Shown here piece by piece: positions 13,236 through 20,444 of a stretch of 40,708 nucleotides of DNA (within the stretch, counting starts at the first letter, position 1; each line of letters opens with the position of its first letter). A model generated the notes under the pieces. That model was not told the DNA's origin. It ran no database searches and saw only the letters and a list, made by a program, of their open reading frames with translations. The DNA is from a virus, in the IMG/VR virus record IMGVR_UViG_3300043775_000775, positions 1-40,708 of that record; one strand, 5' to 3'. Both the position numbers and the translations under genes were made by a program.

Positions 13236-13673
13236 ATGAGTAAAGTATATATTGCAGCACCATTCTTCAACGATAAGCAATTGCAAATTGTTGAAGATAT
13301 TAAAGCAATTTTGGAAGAGCAAGGTTTTGACTACTTCTCGCCAAAAGATGAATCAATGTTTAAACAAGGCGATGAGCCAAAAGATATACTTAAGTTAAAT
13401 TGTAAAGCCATAGGCCATTCATCGTTTATGGTTTGCGTCACTGATGATAAAGACGTGGGCACCATTTGGGAAGCAGGCTATGCGTTTGCAAGAAGAGTGC
13501 CAATTTTGTACGTCTGGTTAGGCTATAAGCCGCATATGAAGTTCAACATTATGTTGGCAGCATCAGGTAAAACTGTAGTGCATACGTACGAAGATTTTGT
13601 ACATCAATTGCAAAATTATGTACAGTTTAACGAGTTTATTCCAACACAAGCAGTAGGTATGTTACATGAATGA
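13236..13673 (+). CDS. Nucleoside 2-deoxyribosyltransferase, 145 aa
   Basis: Exchanges the base on 2'-deoxyribonucleosides, or hydrolyses deoxynucleotide glycosidic bonds as some relatives do. Features are VYIAAPFF at 4-11, FSPKDE at 34-39, and GTIWEAGYAFA with the nucleophilic E79, followed by the YVWL strand. Length and order match the family (about 140-160 aa). Good binding site AAGGAG. It opens a deoxynucleotide operon ending with thymidylate synthase. Its role may be to adjust deoxynucleoside pools or supply an unusual base. The substrate cannot be read from sequence. Confidence 0.85.
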   Translation: MSKVYIAAPFFNDKQLQIVEDIKAILEEQGFDYFSPKDESMFKQGDEPKDILKLNCKAIGHSSFMVCVTDDKDVGTIWEAGYAFARRVPILYVWLGYKPHMKFNIMLAASGKTVVHTYEDFVHQLQNYVQFNEFIPTQAVGMLHE

Positions 13674-14178
13674 GCAAGAATTTGCAGATTTTTATGCACA
13701 GATATACAAACTAAGTTGCATTACCAGGTACTCCGGTGTACCAAGAATAAAAGACGAATCTGTTGCAGAACACTCGTTCTTTGTTGCTTCATTAGTTGTA
13801 GAGTTGCATAAAAAATACGATTTCGATCTTGGTAAAGCATTGTTAATAGCTATTACTCATGATTGGGCAGAGTCATATATTGGTGATATAACTTGGTCAG
13901 TTAAAAAGCAGTTTGAACAGATAAAATCTGCAGCTCACCAAGCAGAACATCATATAATGAAGTATACGTTTAGAGACGTATATCCTAGTTGGTTAGAGTA
14001 CCAAGAACTATCGACAGTTGAGGCAAAGATAGTAGCTCTGGCTGATGTAATTCAGGTTGCGCAGTACGCAGAAAACGAAGTAAAATTAGGTAACACTGGG
14101 CACATGATTGACGTAGCTAACAGTGCATATATTAGACTTGAAAAACTTAGTGAGGCAGTAGATGAGTTTAAGAGGTAA
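13666..14178 (+). CDS. HD-domain phosphohydrolase, YfbR-like, 170 aa
   Basis: Metal-dependent nucleotide hydrolase. Seen residues are H36 in VAEHSFF, the H65-D66 pair in THDWAE, and D127 in ALADVIQ, the complete H-HD-D set. The fold type matches YfbR 5'-deoxynucleotidases and the DatZ dATP hydrolases. The length is close to both and sequence alone does not separate them for me. It overlaps the deoxyribosyltransferase by 8 bases. Together they could turn dNMPs or dNTPs into deoxynucleosides and swap bases. No PurZ-like gene is present, which argues against a diaminopurine genome. Confidence 0.85.
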   Translation: MNEQEFADFYAQIYKLSCITRYSGVPRIKDESVAEHSFFVASLVVELHKKYDFDLGKALLIAITHDWAESYIGDITWSVKKQFEQIKSAAHQAEHHIMKYTFRDVYPSWLEYQELSTVEAKIVALADVIQVAQYAENEVKLGNTGHMIDVANSAYIRLEKLSEAVDEFKR

Positions 14179-14431
14179 TGATTGGTTAGACTTTTCCAAA
14201 AAAGTTAGTGACCATATTGAGAATTACACAGTACCTCAATATGGCGATAAAGGTAACGACGAAGCAGACGATTTTACTGCTGAAGAATGCGTGAAGCATA
14301 TAAAACGATACGTTGCTCGTCATGGCAAAAACAGCAGGCCAGGCCAGGACGAGTTAGATTTAATTAAAATTGCGCACTATGCGCAAATGGCCCACACTAA
14401 ACTACAGGAGCAACAAAATGCCAAAAGCTAA
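14162..14431 (+). CDS. Conserved-type phage protein in dNTP operon, 89 aa
   Basis: ATG 14162 has GAGG six bases upstream and overlaps the HD gene by 17 bases. Contains NYTVPQYGD, then a helix with EECVKHIKRYVARHG and a Pro-Gly turn leading to LDLIKIAHYAQMAH. I have a sense of seeing this type beside phage ThyX genes, always without assigned function. The all-helical second half with conserved Glu and Asp has a MazG-like look, but the metal-binding pattern is incomplete. Confidence 0.65.
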   Translation: MSLRGNDWLDFSKKVSDHIENYTVPQYGDKGNDEADDFTAEECVKHIKRYVARHGKNSRPGQDELDLIKIAHYAQMAHTKLQEQQNAKS

Positions 14432-15320
14432 CCATTTAACAGGCCAACATGAGCCATTGTATACTGAGAAAAAATTCGGCAAAAAACCGAACATATCGTA
14501 CATAGACCAGTTTGATGCCATTAAAGTTACTATTGTTGATGCACCAACAGTTGAACAGATGCGAAAATTGCTGCCAGTGTTTATGTACAACTCTTGGCAA
14601 GAAAGACCGAAGTTTAATGGATTTACTGACGAAGAAATTGATACTTGCATTGCAGAACTATTTGCTGGTTCTATCTTACCAACTGGTATGGAAACAATTG
14701 GTATAACGTTTTGCGTTGAAGGCCTTGATCTGGTAGACGTCACGCATCTTATTAGGCATAGAGCTTTTTCGTTTTCGGCACAGTGCAGTGATCGCGATCT
14801 TCGTGATTTGACAGCTCTGGTAAAGCCATCTATACATGAAAACGACGAATTTTTTAGACGTTATATTGATATAGTGCGAGATTCTGTTCAGCTATACGCA
14901 GATATGATGGACAGTGGTGAAGTTAATACGTTCGATGCCAGAACTATATTACCTATCTGTAAAAGTCATTTTTACAATGTTCGTGGTTGTATGAAAGATA
15001 TTATTGCGTTCTGCAACCAACGTTGTGACGAGCAGATACAACCACAGTCAGATAACATTATAGCTATCAAACTATGGCTAGAAATATCAAAACTGTATCC
15101 GTTCTTAAAAGACGTAGTTAATTTACGTCAGCAAGCCAAATACTATATCGGCCAATGTGCTGCAGGTAAAACTACTATATTTCCGCCAAATAAAGCCAAT
15201 GACGTGTTCAATTGGCCAGAATCACAGTTCTTTCATGACAAGCATCGCGATGAGTTTAATGGCGGTAAAGCATACTTAGAGCTTAGAGATAAGTTGCTAA
15301 GTGAGTTAGATAATCTTTAA
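14418..15320 (+). CDS. Divergent ThyX-family protein, 300 aa
   Basis: Starts at ATG 14418 with AGGAG upstream. It carries the flavin-dependent thymidylate synthase signature in altered form. HLIRHRAFSFSAQCSDRD has R113-H114-R115, but one extra residue separates RHR from the second Arg compared with canonical RHR-x7-S-x-R. C123 and S124 occupy the catalytic Ser zone. Later, FDARTILP (R175) and a helix ending CNQRCDEQ match the family, but the usual AQ-x-EIR segment is lost. It is about 90 residues longer than the canonical ThyX at 16165. A paralog acting on another substrate, or making another 5-substituted pyrimidine, is possible but unproven. Confidence 0.8.
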   Translation: MPKANHLTGQHEPLYTEKKFGKKPNISYIDQFDAIKVTIVDAPTVEQMRKLLPVFMYNSWQERPKFNGFTDEEIDTCIAELFAGSILPTGMETIGITFCVEGLDLVDVTHLIRHRAFSFSAQCSDRDLRDLTALVKPSIHENDEFFRRYIDIVRDSVQLYADMMDSGEVNTFDARTILPICKSHFYNVRGCMKDIIAFCNQRCDEQIQPQSDNIIAIKLWLEISKLYPFLKDVVNLRQQAKYYIGQCAAGKTTIFPPNKANDVFNWPESQFFHDKHRDEFNGGKAYLELRDKLLSELDNL

Positions 15321-15328
15321 TATTAACT

Positions 15329-15350
15329 GCACAAGGATGTGCTATTTTTT
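15329..15350 (+). terminator. Weak intrinsic terminator or attenuator
   Basis: A 5-bp stem, GCACA (15329-15333) with TGTGC (15338-15342), 4-base loop, followed by TATTTTTT. The stem is short, so partial termination is more likely than full. It lies between the divergent ThyX gene and the dUTPase-like gene. Confidence 0.4.
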
Positions 15351-15363
15351 AGGAGCAATAGGC

Positions 15364-15732
15364 ATGAACAAATTATTTAAACAGCAGCAAGACTTACAAT
15401 CGTTACTTACTACTGGTGAGCCAGACGGTGAGTATGTTGGCAATCTTTGCGAGCAAATTCGTAACATGGCATTCTATCTTAACCAAGAAGTAGTTGAGTT
15501 AATAGAAGAAATTGCTGGTTCTCGTGACATTAACAAGCCATGGAAAACTGCATATACTGACTTGTATATGAAAGAAACTGACATAACTGACAAAGTCAGA
15601 TCAGAGGCTATTGATGTTTTAAAGTTTGCAATGAACATATGTCTATTGGCCGGCATTACGCCAGAAAATGTTGACGAAGAATTTGATAAAGTAAATGATC
15701 GTTGCATAGAGAGATACGAAAATGGCTACTAG
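15364..15732 (+). CDS. MazG/dimeric dUTPase-like nucleotide pyrophosphatase, 122 aa
   Basis: ATG 15364 with AGGAG upstream is preferred to an in-frame ATG at 15337. All-alpha protein with the two metal-binding helices of the MazG/dUTPase superfamily: EVVELIEEIAG (about residues 42-52) and EAIDVLKF (about 81-88). The long insert with WKTAYTDLYMK between them is typical of dimeric dUTPases. It would hydrolyse dUTP to dUMP, feeding the thymidylate synthase downstream and keeping uracil out of DNA. Overlaps the dCMP deaminase by 11 bases. Confidence 0.75.
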   Translation: MNKLFKQQQDLQSLLTTGEPDGEYVGNLCEQIRNMAFYLNQEVVELIEEIAGSRDINKPWKTAYTDLYMKETDITDKVRSEAIDVLKFAMNICLLAGITPENVDEEFDKVNDRCIERYENGY

Positions 15733-16168
15733 ACCTACTAAAAAAGTAACGTTCCTTCGTATGGCCAGACTACTGTCAGAGCAGAGCACTTGTGCCAGAC
15801 GAAATGTTGGCGTAATTATGACTGACCACAATCATAGAATAGTTGCGTCTGGTTACAATGGTAACGCCAAAGGATTGCCACATTGCATAAACGTTAACTG
15901 TGCAGGAGCCATTCACAAGTCTGGTTCAGCATTGGACTTATGTGAAGCTATACATGCAGAGCAAAATGCACTTATGCAATGCAATGATATTAATCGTATT
16001 CACTCAGTATACTGCACAACAGCACCTTGTATGCACTGTTTAAAAATGTTACTAAATACAAATGCTCAAAACATATACTTTTTAGACAGCTATCCTAATA
16101 TGCATGAGTCAGAAAATATGTGGATACAATCAATACGTGGCCGACATTGGGAGCAAGTAAAAATATGA
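15722..16168 (+). CDS. dCMP deaminase, 148 aa
   Basis: Zinc-dependent deaminase giving dUMP from dCMP. The active site is HAEQNAL (H78, E80) and TAPCMHC (C103, C106), the standard zinc ligands and proton shuttle. YNGNAKGLPHC upstream is the usual substrate loop of the phage and eukaryotic dCMP deaminases, and there is an extra Cys/His pair that could bind a second zinc. Overlaps both neighbours. With the dUTPase-like enzyme it gives two routes to dUMP for ThyX. Confidence 0.92.
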   Translation: MATRPTKKVTFLRMARLLSEQSTCARRNVGVIMTDHNHRIVASGYNGNAKGLPHCINVNCAGAIHKSGSALDLCEAIHAEQNALMQCNDINRIHSVYCTTAPCMHCLKMLLNTNAQNIYFLDSYPNMHESENMWIQSIRGRHWEQVKI

Positions 16169-16797
16169 GAATAATTAGTCCTAGCTTTGAAATAATTAAT
16201 GCATCAATTTATCTTCAAAAAACAATTGAAATAGCTGGTAGAGTATGCTATAAGTCAGAAGATAAAATATGCGACGGCTCAGATGCTAAGTTCATTGAGC
16301 ATTTAAAAGGCTTGCACCATGATTCAGTTATCGAACATGGCTCAATAACAGTAAAAATAGTTTGTGATCGTGGCGTATCTCATGAATTGGTAAGGCATAG
16401 ACTGGCTTCGTATAGCCAAGAATCTACCAGGTATTGTAACTATTCAAAAGATAAGTTTGGTAATGATATTACTGTGATAGACATTGCTACTGGATTTAAC
16501 TATGATCTATCAAACCCAAAAGACTATGCCAAATATGGCATATGGCGTAGAGCTATGATTCATGCACAAGACATGTACATGGAATTACTGCATAGAGGTG
16601 CTACCGCGCAAGAAGCCAGATCAGTACTACCAAATAGTCTTGGTACTGTAGTAGTTATAACTGCCAATCCACGAGAATGGCGACACATATTTAAAATGCG
16701 AGTAGCACAATCAGCTCACCCACAAATGCGTGAAATAATGCTACCTATGCTAGAAGAGTTTAAATCAAAATGGCCAGCAATTTTTGGAGACCTATAG
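16165..16797 (+). CDS. thyX: Flavin-dependent thymidylate synthase
   Basis: Canonical ThyX of 210 aa making dTMP from dUMP with FAD, NADPH and methylene-tetrahydrofolate. Start ATG 16165 overlaps the deaminase stop (ATGA) with GGAG upstream. The signature is RHRLASYSQESTRY (R77 to Y90, S87 in the catalytic position), followed by EARSVLP (R152) and AHPQMREIM near the C-terminus. Length fits the family (about 210-250). It is the last enzyme of the pyrimidine series and overlaps no other gene at its end. Confidence 0.93.
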   Translation: MRIISPSFEIINASIYLQKTIEIAGRVCYKSEDKICDGSDAKFIEHLKGLHHDSVIEHGSITVKIVCDRGVSHELVRHRLASYSQESTRYCNYSKDKFGNDITVIDIATGFNYDLSNPKDYAKYGIWRRAMIHAQDMYMELLHRGATAQEARSVLPNSLGTVVVITANPREWRHIFKMRVAQSAHPQMREIMLPMLEEFKSKWPAIFGDL

Positions 16798-16798
16798 T

Positions 16799-17854
16799 AT
16801 GAACGGTATTGCTCTATATAAATACAACGTAAATAACGCACTAATGCTGTGGATAATTAGTTCTGACGGTAATACGATAGTAATACGCCACGGCCAAGCC
16901 AATGGCGCAATGCAGATAAAAACAGAAGTTGTAGAAGTTAACCAATCTGGTAGAGACTTAGAAGCACAAGTGGCACTAAGAATGCAGTCAAGAGTTAATA
17001 AGCAAATTGATAAAGGCTATTGTGCTTCAATAGAAGAAGCTGAAGCAAGCAAAGGTCTTAACGCGTCTAAACTACTAAGACCAATGCTAGCTAAAAAATT
17101 CAGAGACGTTAATAACATTGATTTTAACGATGCATGGTTGCAATATAAGTACAATGGCCATAGATGCTTAATTACCAACATTGACGGTGAGTTAGTGGCA
17201 TACTCTCGTAACGGTAAACCAATAACGTCAATAGACCACATTCTAAGTGGCTTGTCAATACCAGAAGGTATGACTATAGACGGTGAGCTATACCATCATG
17301 GTACTAGCTTACAGACCATTGGTTCTTGGATTAAGCGCAACCAGCCAGAGAGCAAGAAACTACAGTATATTGGCTATGACGTAATATTAAACACCAACTA
17401 TGCAAAAAGGCTTGATATACTGCATAAACACATTGGTAGTAGTGAAAACGTAATTATAGCACCATCGCAAGCATGCCATGATGACTTAATTATAAAAGAT
17501 AGATTAACAGATGCTATAAATAGCGGCTACGAAGGTCTTATGCTTAGACAGAATAAGTACGCATATGCTGCCGGTAGTAGAAGTCAAAGTTTGATAAAAG
17601 TTAAAAAGTGCTTAGACCAAGAATTTCTTGTGCTAAACGTATTAGCAGCAAAAGACGCTTGGGGTATATTAGAATGTCTGGCACCATCTGGTGATAGAAC
17701 GTTTAGAGTATCAGCACCAGGCACTATTGACAATAAACGCCATATATTATATAATAGACAAGACTATATTGGCAAGTATATTACAGTAGAGTTCTTTGAG
17801 TGGACTAACGATGGTATACCGTTTCATCCTGTGGCAACTAACTGGAGAAGTTAA
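16799..17854 (+). CDS. ATP-dependent DNA ligase with N-terminal WGR-like domain
   Basis: 351 aa from ATG 16799 (GGAG nine bases before); an ATG at 16784 is possible. Residues about 1-75 have YKYNVNNALMLWIISSDG, a Gly-rich HGQANGAM turn and a C-terminal KQIDKGY, resembling a WGR domain. The ligase core follows: motif I KYNGHR with adenylated K117 (Asn119 in place of the usual Asp), motif III DGELY (D161, E163), motif IV EGLMLR (E245) and motif V LIKVKK (K267, K269). It seals nicks in replicated DNA. WGR domains bind nicked DNA in PARP proteins, so this one may direct the ligase to nicks. Confidence 0.85.
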   Translation: MNGIALYKYNVNNALMLWIISSDGNTIVIRHGQANGAMQIKTEVVEVNQSGRDLEAQVALRMQSRVNKQIDKGYCASIEEAEASKGLNASKLLRPMLAKKFRDVNNIDFNDAWLQYKYNGHRCLITNIDGELVAYSRNGKPITSIDHILSGLSIPEGMTIDGELYHHGTSLQTIGSWIKRNQPESKKLQYIGYDVILNTNYAKRLDILHKHIGSSENVIIAPSQACHDDLIIKDRLTDAINSGYEGLMLRQNKYAYAAGSRSQSLIKVKKCLDQEFLVLNVLAAKDAWGILECLAPSGDRTFRVSAPGTIDNKRHILYNRQDYIGKYITVEFFEWTNDGIPFHPVATNWRS

Positions 17855-19481: not shown

Positions 19482-20444
19482 TTAAAATAGTTCTTTTAAC
19501 CTATCAACTACGCTGTCTAAATACGAGGGAGGAGGTAAACGTTTAGGTTTAATGCTCTCTATTTTTGATAAGTCCCAGCCAATAGTGTTATAAGGATAGC
19601 CCATATTAGACATAGTTCTGAGTGGGCTATCTTTGTAATTGTTTTTTTCGAACCTATCTTGAATAATTCTGGATGCTACTTCTGTAGGTCTGGCCAGGTA
19701 TTCAGCGTCATCTGGCGTCATCTGCGACCTTGCATACCTTTCATATATAGCAGGATTTCTACTGTGCTTTGCATATAGTGAATCAGCAGTATCCATTTCT
19801 TTATTTACTCGTTTATCGTGTGGCAAATAGCCAAAAGCTGATTTATTTTCGTGATCGTATAAGTCAGCATCATAATATATTGAATGACCTAGCTCATGTA
19901 GTATAGCTGATGTGTCTTTCACAGGGTCAGCTTGTCTACCATTAGAGTTAATGAGTATAGAATCTTCTGCAGGTTTAACTCCCAGCGATTTTAGTAGTTT
20001 ACCAAGTGGGCCAAAGTCCATATGTCTATTGGCCATAATTTGCTTTGGGTCTCTATCAGATAAGAATACTTGTAAGTTTCGTTTGTCAGGATACTGCTCA
20101 AATAACTTGTCATGCTTTAATATCGACTCGAGAGGCACACCCATACCAAACATACTTCGTAGTTCGCCTATAAAACCAGTGCCGTTAGGTATTTTGCTAG
20201 TGTCTATATTAGTAGTAGCGCCAGTGTCTTGTATTTCGCCTAATAGCTGCTGAGTGCCTTTATTAGTGACCCATGGATACATTTTATGTTGTTCCCATAG
20301 CTGTGCATTGTCAATATTGCTGGCCAAGTTTTCAAGATTAAGCAATTTGGCATTTTTTGGGTAATCCTTGGCTAAAGGCGTCAATGGCATGGCTTCAGCT
20401 GTAGACATAGGGTTTAGCATGTTCAGTAAGTCTTGAATATTCAT
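19482..20444 (-). CDS. Zincin metallopeptidase-like protein, 320 aa
   Basis: Contains AILHELGHSIYYD with the zinc motif H183-E184-x2-H187. A likely third ligand is E255, in ARPTEVASR about 70 residues later, the layout of gluzincin-like domains found in phage polyvalent proteins. N-terminus MNIQDLL is shared with the ADP-ribosyltransferase-like neighbour, otherwise the two are unrelated. No ribosome binding site is visible before ATG 20444; the start abuts the duplicated element at 20450-20549. Probably a virion-delivered peptidase or an effector. Possible targets include host proteins, capsid-internal proteins or cell-wall peptides. None can be chosen from sequence. Confidence 0.75.
   Translation of the reverse strand: MNIQDLLNMLNPMSTAEAMPLTPLAKDYPKNAKLLNLENLASNIDNAQLWEQHKMYPWVTNKGTQQLLGEIQDTGATTNIDTSKIPNGTGFIGELRSMFGMGVPLESILKHDKLFEQYPDKRNLQVFLSDRDPKQIMANRHMDFGPLGKLLKSLGVKPAEDSILINSNGRQADPVKDTSAILHELGHSIYYDADLYDHENKSAFGYLPHDKRVNKEMDTADSLYAKHSRNPAIYERYARSQMTPDDAEYLARPTEVASRIIQDRFEKNNYKDSPLRTMSNMGYPYNTIGWDLSKIESIKPKRLPPPSYLDSVVDRLKELF

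Follow-up and report, generated by a model that had tools for sequence, protein, structure and literature searches.

A viral branch of the ThyX family with an altered active site as a candidate pyrimidine-modifying enzyme of phages

In the flavin-dependent thymidylate synthase ThyX, Tyr91, which lies next to Arg90, has been proposed as the acid for methylene transfer, with His53 as its hydrogen-bond partner stacking on the flavin/folate (PMC8316439, PMC11940539), and Arg174 activates deoxyuridylate (dUMP) by favouring the deprotonation of N3 (PMC8316439). In PolB, a related methylase, the uracil O4 is bound by Arg98, the arginine of the SxR motif, and O2 by Arg193, the equivalent of Arg174 (PMC5003785), and in the cytosine enzymes of the ThyA type a change of Asn to Asp marks the specificity for cytosine (PMC5175136). 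The stretch of DNA analysed here comprises positions 1 to 40,708 of the IMG/VR virus record IMGVR_UViG_3300043775_000775 (in the following, the window) and encodes a conventional ThyX as well as, in the same gene run, an altered homologue of 300 amino acids, referred to here as ThyX2. Sequence comparisons suggest that ThyX2 belongs to a large viral branch of the ThyX family that has not been recognised before and probably makes some modified pyrimidine nucleotide and not deoxythymidylate (dTMP).

A first-pass annotation of the window had pointed to two ThyX-family proteins in one run of nucleotide genes, and indeed both ThyX2 (14418..15320, plus strand) and the conventional ThyX (16165..16797, plus strand) pass the Pfam Thy1 cut-off of 24.8 bits, with 42.1 and 159.7 bits, respectively. 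The NCBI equivalog profile TIGR02170 for ThyX (cut-off 87.9 bits), in turn, is failed by ThyX2 of the window (30.7 bits) as well as by its homologues in Geobacillus phage GR1 (49.9 bits) and in locus L030 (52.6 bits), and a family profile built from 20 ThyX2 sequences reaches the ThyX of Mycobacterium tuberculosis at E = 8e-8. Based on an AlphaFold2 model (predicted local distance difference test, pLDDT, 84; predicted template-modelling score, pTM, 0.83), and because the top 50 matches of this model in the PDB are all ThyX or PolB (best E = 1.3e-9, TM score 0.46-0.55 by query length), the predicted fold of ThyX2 is that of ThyX, extended at the C-terminus. The first-pass annotation had regarded a fold without a flavin site as speaking against its proposal of a base-modifying enzyme; the model does not predict such a fold, and the RHR motif and the equivalent of Arg174 are both kept. 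ThyX2 is best read as an offshoot of the flavin-dependent thymidylate synthase fold that has acquired a new function, presumably still using flavin.

With respect to its distribution, ThyX2 was found in 34 IMG/VR loci in a first scan and then in at least 145, the best 80 of these 145 being retained and the fetched loci reduced to 48 representatives with less than 90% identity. Homologues annotated as FAD-dependent (flavin adenine dinucleotide-dependent) thymidylate synthases are carried by phage GR1 (37.5%) and by 36 plasmid records, all from Bacillus, including the plasmid-prophage pBS32 of B. subtilis (38.5%); the plasmid records listed are B. subtilis plasmids of about 83-84 kb. No relative was found on bacterial chromosomes in a scan of genome contigs. 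Against 18 conventional ThyX proteins the 48 representatives form one clade (99/98 support, 99% of bootstrap trees), although the long branches of some conventional ThyX make the outer order of this tree unsure, and close pairs have dN/dS values of 0.01-0.13 where computable, indicating strong purifying selection. A link to Xp12-type 5-methylcytosine via the carpasinaviruses matched by the GR1 protein (XcP1) was rejected, as the divergent ThyX there (RTRTGAYQQETSR) falls outside the ThyX2 clade; Xp12 has been grouped with the Pamexviruses, of which the member AXL1 encodes a dihydrofolate reductase and a thymidylate synthase (PMC9206674).

The altered signature already noticed in the 300-residue protein is real and not due to chance, since it recurs in all 48 non-redundant relatives. 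While RHR, a histidine at position -3 of RHR and the arginine of ARxxLP are retained in 48 of 48 representatives, none has kept the SxRY of ThyX, so that the catalytic tyrosine is lost throughout. It is replaced by a loop of the pattern (C/G)(S/T)(G/A)-Asp/Glu-Arg/Lys-(D/W/F), or a close variant, namely CTGDRD (16 representatives), CTGDRW (12), CTADRD (7), GTGDRD (6), CSDRD (4), CTGDRF (2) and CSAEKW (1). According to an hhalign alignment the His53-x4-Glu of ThyX corresponds to L-P-x3-E in ThyX2, with leucine at the position of His53 in all 48, and the Arg174 equivalent is conserved, the residue before it being Gln in 43 representatives and Thr in 5. ThyX2 of the window has RHRAFSFSAQCSDR, and its altered stretch extends from Leu87-Pro-x3-Glu92 to His110-x2-RHR-x7-C-S-D125-R126-D127 (14676..14798, plus strand), its marked residues being invariant or nearly so among the representatives, and the invariant Arg202 (15021..15023, plus strand) aligns with Arg174 of Thermotoga maritima ThyX and Arg193 of PolB, the contact of the pyrimidine O2. 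Two details of the signature need qualification. The motif had been described as one residue longer than in ThyX, which applies to most relatives (C-T-G-D-R) but not to ThyX2 of the window, where RHR-X7-C-S-D-R aligns without gap to RHR-X7-S-x-R-Y; and of the AQ-x-EIR segment reported as lost only EIR is gone, the Gln being retained as IQP.

Compared with PolB, ThyX2 keeps the arginine contacting O2, and an acidic residue occupies the position of the arginine contacting O4 or one next to it. By analogy with the Asn-to-Asp change in the ThyA-type cytosine enzymes, this residue might act as a switch from uracil, with an acceptor at C4, to cytosine, with a donor at C4, which hangs on the alignment of the loop. 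Likewise, the loss of the Tyr91/His53 pair could favour a stop at the hydroxymethyl stage, because reduction of the methylene by the flavin would then not be needed.

Many carriers already encode a thymidylate synthase. A second ThyX lies within 10 kb of ThyX2 in 32 loci, corresponding to 15 of the 48 representatives, and 20 of these 32 have the full RHR-X7-SxRY, the rest being variant forms such as KHR...SARY. Five co-encoded ThyX proteins, that of the window included, were compared with TIGR02170 and all lie above its cut-off (97.5-181.3 bits). In L064, L071, L078 and L083 the second ThyX has KHRIGVS.N.ESARY in place of RHR-X7-SxRY, and the member in L071 passes the equivalog cut-off. Three more records with ThyX2 (those of L020, L021 and L039) contain a ThyA with the uracil-type Asn, as read by eye. 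Since a second ThyX or a uracil-type ThyA is co-encoded so often, ThyX2 is, judged from sequence, unlikely to be a spare dTMP synthase; the argument of the first-pass annotation, that a second dTMP synthase would be redundant and ThyX2 should have another role, is supported by this co-encoding as well as by the separate clade and the failed equivalog. Unclustered genes coding for 238 (L012) and 234 residues (L014), which lie downstream of ThyX2, were also considered as possible thymidylate synthases and discarded, as by eye they resemble an S-adenosylmethionine-dependent methyltransferase and an HAD-like protein, respectively. Besides ThyX2, neither ThyA nor another ThyX was found in GR1, and no thymidylate synthase of its own in pBS32.

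The alpha-glucosyltransferase (AGT) of phage T4 glucosylates 5-hydroxymethylcytosine in DNA. The gene run of GR1 and of the records of L020, L021 and L024 (the GR1 group) also includes, four or five genes upstream of ThyX2, a putative AGT of about 450-465 residues. These proteins match the alpha-glucosyltransferases of PHROG 2888 (phrog_2888) at E = 6e-53 and those of T4-like phages at about 23% identity (E about 1e-5), and a family profile including two homologues from Bacillus phage G finds T4 DNA alpha-glucosyltransferase in the PDB (1y6f, 1xv5; E = 3e-24) and no other significant match. With the GR1-group protein as single query, phmmer did not recover T4 AGT from the PDB, and a structure prediction from one sequence was poor (pLDDT 37) and not used. 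As GR1 lacks a ThyA-type enzyme, ThyX2 is the obvious candidate for making the base that would accept the glucose. In phage G, the two AGT-family proteins lie near a ThyA homologue with Asp at the position of Asn177 (FGTPYDI, by eye), i.e., one of the cytosine type. Adjoining AGT, a dCMP (deoxycytidylate) deaminase and this ThyA homologue is gp315 of phage G (L044, 18928-19923), which is annotated as thymidylate kinase and by eye combines a kinase N-terminus with a C-terminus resembling uracil-DNA glycosylase.

The genes within 6 kb of ThyX2 were counted for the 48 representatives, GR1 and pBS32 (n = 50) and include proteins resembling nucleoside 2-deoxyribosyltransferases (NDT-like) in 43, MazG/dUTPase-like proteins in 34, HD/YfbR-like phosphohydrolases in 24 and deoxynucleoside monophosphate (dNMP) kinase-like proteins in 12. 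Tyr5, Asp73, Glu79 and Asn104 of the NDT-like protein are invariant in 44 of 44 relatives, as are His36, His65, Asp66 and Asp127 of the HD/YfbR-like protein in 24 of 24. In phages with Z-DNA, the NDT-like DmtZ hydrolyses dAMP and remakes dZMP, and the YfbR-like DatZ and MazZ act on dATP and dGTP (PMC12884076). Because the neighbours of ThyX2 are of the same kinds, its cassettes look, by analogy, like pool remodelling around a base-making enzyme.

Further genes near ThyX2 are specific for certain groups and comprise, apart from the glucosyltransferase, a TylF-like O-methyltransferase and a nitroreductase. The TylF-like protein (macrocin O-methyltransferase family) is encoded between the HD gene and ThyX2 in L008 (9046-9747) and L009 (5147-5857), at the place taken by the glucosyltransferase in the GR1 group, and possibly decorates a hydroxymethyl base in another way. 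Proteins resembling Fpg/Nei DNA glycosylases (k13, by eye) and NAD-dependent epimerases (k8) recur near ThyX2 in L063, L075, L088, L094, L104 and related loci. The dNMP-kinase-like gene of L020 (7810-8838) and L021 (7789-8838), coding for 342-349 residues, appears to form an in-frame fusion with a segment similar to GIY-YIG homing endonucleases, and L024 and GR1 have a short form.

Taken together, ThyX2 may, with a probability that we consider evenly balanced, be a flavin-dependent enzyme modifying C5 of dCMP to yield hydroxymethyl- (or methyl-) dCMP. C5 of dCMP would receive the one-carbon unit from methylene-tetrahydrofolate by way of reduced FAD. Capture of the exocyclic methylene by water would give 5-hydroxymethyl-dCMP, the more likely product, with 5-methyl-dCMP as the alternative. 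The MazG/dUTPase-, HD/YfbR- and NDT-like neighbours would supply dCMP or clear normal nucleotides, and the dNMP-kinase-like protein of many relatives would lift the product toward the triphosphate for incorporation by the polymerase. In the GR1 group the T4-type AGT could then glucosylate the modified base in DNA. Meanwhile, dTMP would be made by the conventional ThyX and dCMP deaminase, comparable to td and cd alongside gp42 in T4. More tentatively, and a little short of an even chance, it might be assumed that a flavin-dependent dCMP hydroxymethylase, with a fold unrelated to that of the ThyA type, has arisen from a viral branch of ThyX and supplies 5-hydroxymethylcytosine, glucosylated in the GR1 group, to a large set of phages whose annotation at present lists a thymidylate synthase. 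The suggestion in the first-pass annotation that the paralogue modifies a pyrimidine hence receives indirect support from AGT in the GR1-group cassette and from the pool-remodelling neighbours, and is upheld in part; a modified base in the virus of the window itself is a prediction from its relatives.

Several observations weigh against modification of dCMP. AGT occurs in only four of 30 records with ThyX2, all of the GR1 group, and was not found in the 40.7-kb record of the window, which is possibly a fragment; the loop alignment that sets Asp against the pyrimidine 4-position is ambiguous, with an hhalign gap at this place; and the Arg174 equivalent would fit a uracil substrate equally well. 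This residue is also in line with the main rival, unlikely in our view, that ThyX2 is a flavin-dependent dUMP hydroxymethylase whose product, 5-hydroxymethyl-dUMP, takes the place of some of the thymine and, in the GR1 group, receives the glucose. Little chemistry would have to change, as ordinary ThyX forms 5-hydroxymethyl-dUMP as an intermediate that has been trapped (PMC3498832), and phages with hydroxymethyluracil occur in Bacillus (SP8, PMC7653180), GR1 and pBS32 likewise coming from Bacillaceae. However, the window and many relatives invest in dTMP by encoding a second ThyX and, in some cases, dCMP deaminase, the AGT family acts on hydroxymethylcytosine in T4 and is paired with a cytosine-type ThyA homologue in phage G, and the residue in the base-recognition loop of ThyX2 is acidic.

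That ThyX2 is merely a divergent second dTMP synthase, as its ThyX fold and Pfam Thy1 membership would allow, is the least probable of the readings. A dTMP role is possible in GR1 and pBS32, which lack another phage-encoded thymidylate synthase and in this respect also count against a cytosine enzyme; but elsewhere many carriers of ThyX2 have a second ThyX or a uracil-type ThyA in addition, ThyX2 fails the equivalog that the co-encoded ThyX pass, and the positions of His53 and of Tyr91, whose mutation in T. maritima ThyX makes flavin oxidation about 1000-fold slower (PMC11940539), are replaced in 48 of 48. The loss of the catalytic Tyr in all members might instead point to another substrate or flavin/folate reaction (UMP/CMP, a free nucleoside, a hydroxymethyl-derived adduct or formaldehyde handling) or to a dead regulator of the second ThyX. 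PolB shows that a ThyX can change its substrate (PMC5003785), and the extra genes vary by group. Such a role is improbable, though, given neighbours of the deoxynucleotide type, and a dead protein is argued against by strong purifying selection and by the conservation of RHR, the ARxxLP arginine and the Arg174 equivalent in all or nearly all members.

In the window, the gene run in question reads from the NDT-like gene to a DNA ligase (13236-17854) on a single strand, with small gaps or overlaps between the genes, all of which lie on the plus strand. It starts with the NDT-like protein (13236..13673; PF05014, E = 1.6e-13), which has the catalytic Tyr, Asp/Asn and Glu of the superfamily (Y5, D73, E79; triad placed by position, after PMC12884076), followed by the HD/YfbR-like deoxynucleotide phosphohydrolase (13666..14178; PF12917, E = 8.5e-19) and a small protein of 89 residues with no assigned function (14162..14431; phrog_480, E = 0.0016), at whose place many relatives encode, by gene order, a DUF6378-like protein (E = 2e-5 in L016, just under the cut-off). 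ThyX2 starts with the ATG at 14418, with GGAG about 9 nucleotides upstream. Between it and the conventional ThyX, which is the third gene downstream, lie the genes for a MazG/all-alpha dUTPase-like nucleotide pyrophosphohydrolase (15337..15732; phrog_173, E = 1.2e-8; phrog_18650, dUTPase, E = 4e-5; below the cut-offs of both Pfam MazG and dUTPase_2) and dCMP deaminase (15722..16168; PF00383, E = 7e-17; phrog_174, E = 1e-29). The conventional ThyX, with a likely ATG start at 16165 (the longest open reading frame starts with GTG at 16120), scores 126.7 bits against TIGR02170 and has RHR-X7-STRY (RHRLASYSQESTRY), and an ATP-dependent DNA ligase (16784..17854; PF01068, E = 2e-22; phrog_114, E = 7e-60) ends the run. 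Neither Rfam matches nor tRNAs were found in the window, and the number of sites in a promoter scan of the run (42) was close to that in shuffled sequence (37.1). Two minus-strand proteins of the virion region without Pfam match have a HGSPxxF...GTGEGAQAFGxG stretch reminiscent of ADP-ribosyltransferase-like phage proteins (18395-19462) and a zinc-protease-like HELGH motif (19482-20444), respectively.

Should ThyX2 indeed act on dCMP, enzymes of two different folds would make 5-hydroxymethyl- (or methyl-) cytosine nucleotides for the modification of phage DNA, the chemistry of the flavin could halt at the hydroxymethyl stage, the DNA of phages with ThyX2 might contain a modified base, and the naming of at least 145 viral loci as thymidylate synthases would be misleading. 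In the open full-text literature, subscription papers and preprints being outside the scope, nothing was found that joins ThyX, 5-hydroxymethylcytosine and phage, and ThyX appears together with deoxycytidylate hydroxymethylase only once, as a cited title. The proposal is directly testable, as phage GR1 has already been cultured and the pBS32 homologue resides in B. subtilis NCIB 3610, a strain in common laboratory use.

Amongst the known systems, ThyX (TIGR02170, PF02511) shares with ThyX2 the predicted fold, RHR, the ARxxLP arginine and the Arg174 equivalent, from which ThyX2 departs by the replaced SxRY, Leu at the His53 position, the altered AQxEIR, about 60 extra C-terminal residues and a score below the equivalog cut-off. 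PolB (PDB 4p5a, 4p5b), the UMP/dUMP methylase of polyoxin biosynthesis, is likewise a ThyX-family enzyme with a changed substrate and one of the best fold matches of ThyX2 (PMC5003785), but it acts on uracil nucleotides and keeps Ser96-Ala97-Arg98-Tyr99, a motif that ThyX2 lacks. The Z-DNA cassettes, in which PurZ is accompanied by DmtZ, DatZ and MazZ, likewise surround a base-making enzyme with NDT-like, YfbR-like HD and MazG-like genes (PMC12884076), whereas PurZ acts on a purine and the ThyX-like central enzyme would be expected to act on a pyrimidine. T4 gp42, the dCMP hydroxymethylase, and other cytosine-type ThyA homologues would have the predicted reaction in common with ThyX2, and the genomic logic is alike, with a dTMP synthase sharing the fold present alongside dCMP deaminase, a pyrophosphohydrolase and, in one group, AGT. 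However, gp42 has the ThyA fold and uses no flavin, and with its predicted ThyX fold ThyX2 would have converged on this function and be at most a functional analogue.

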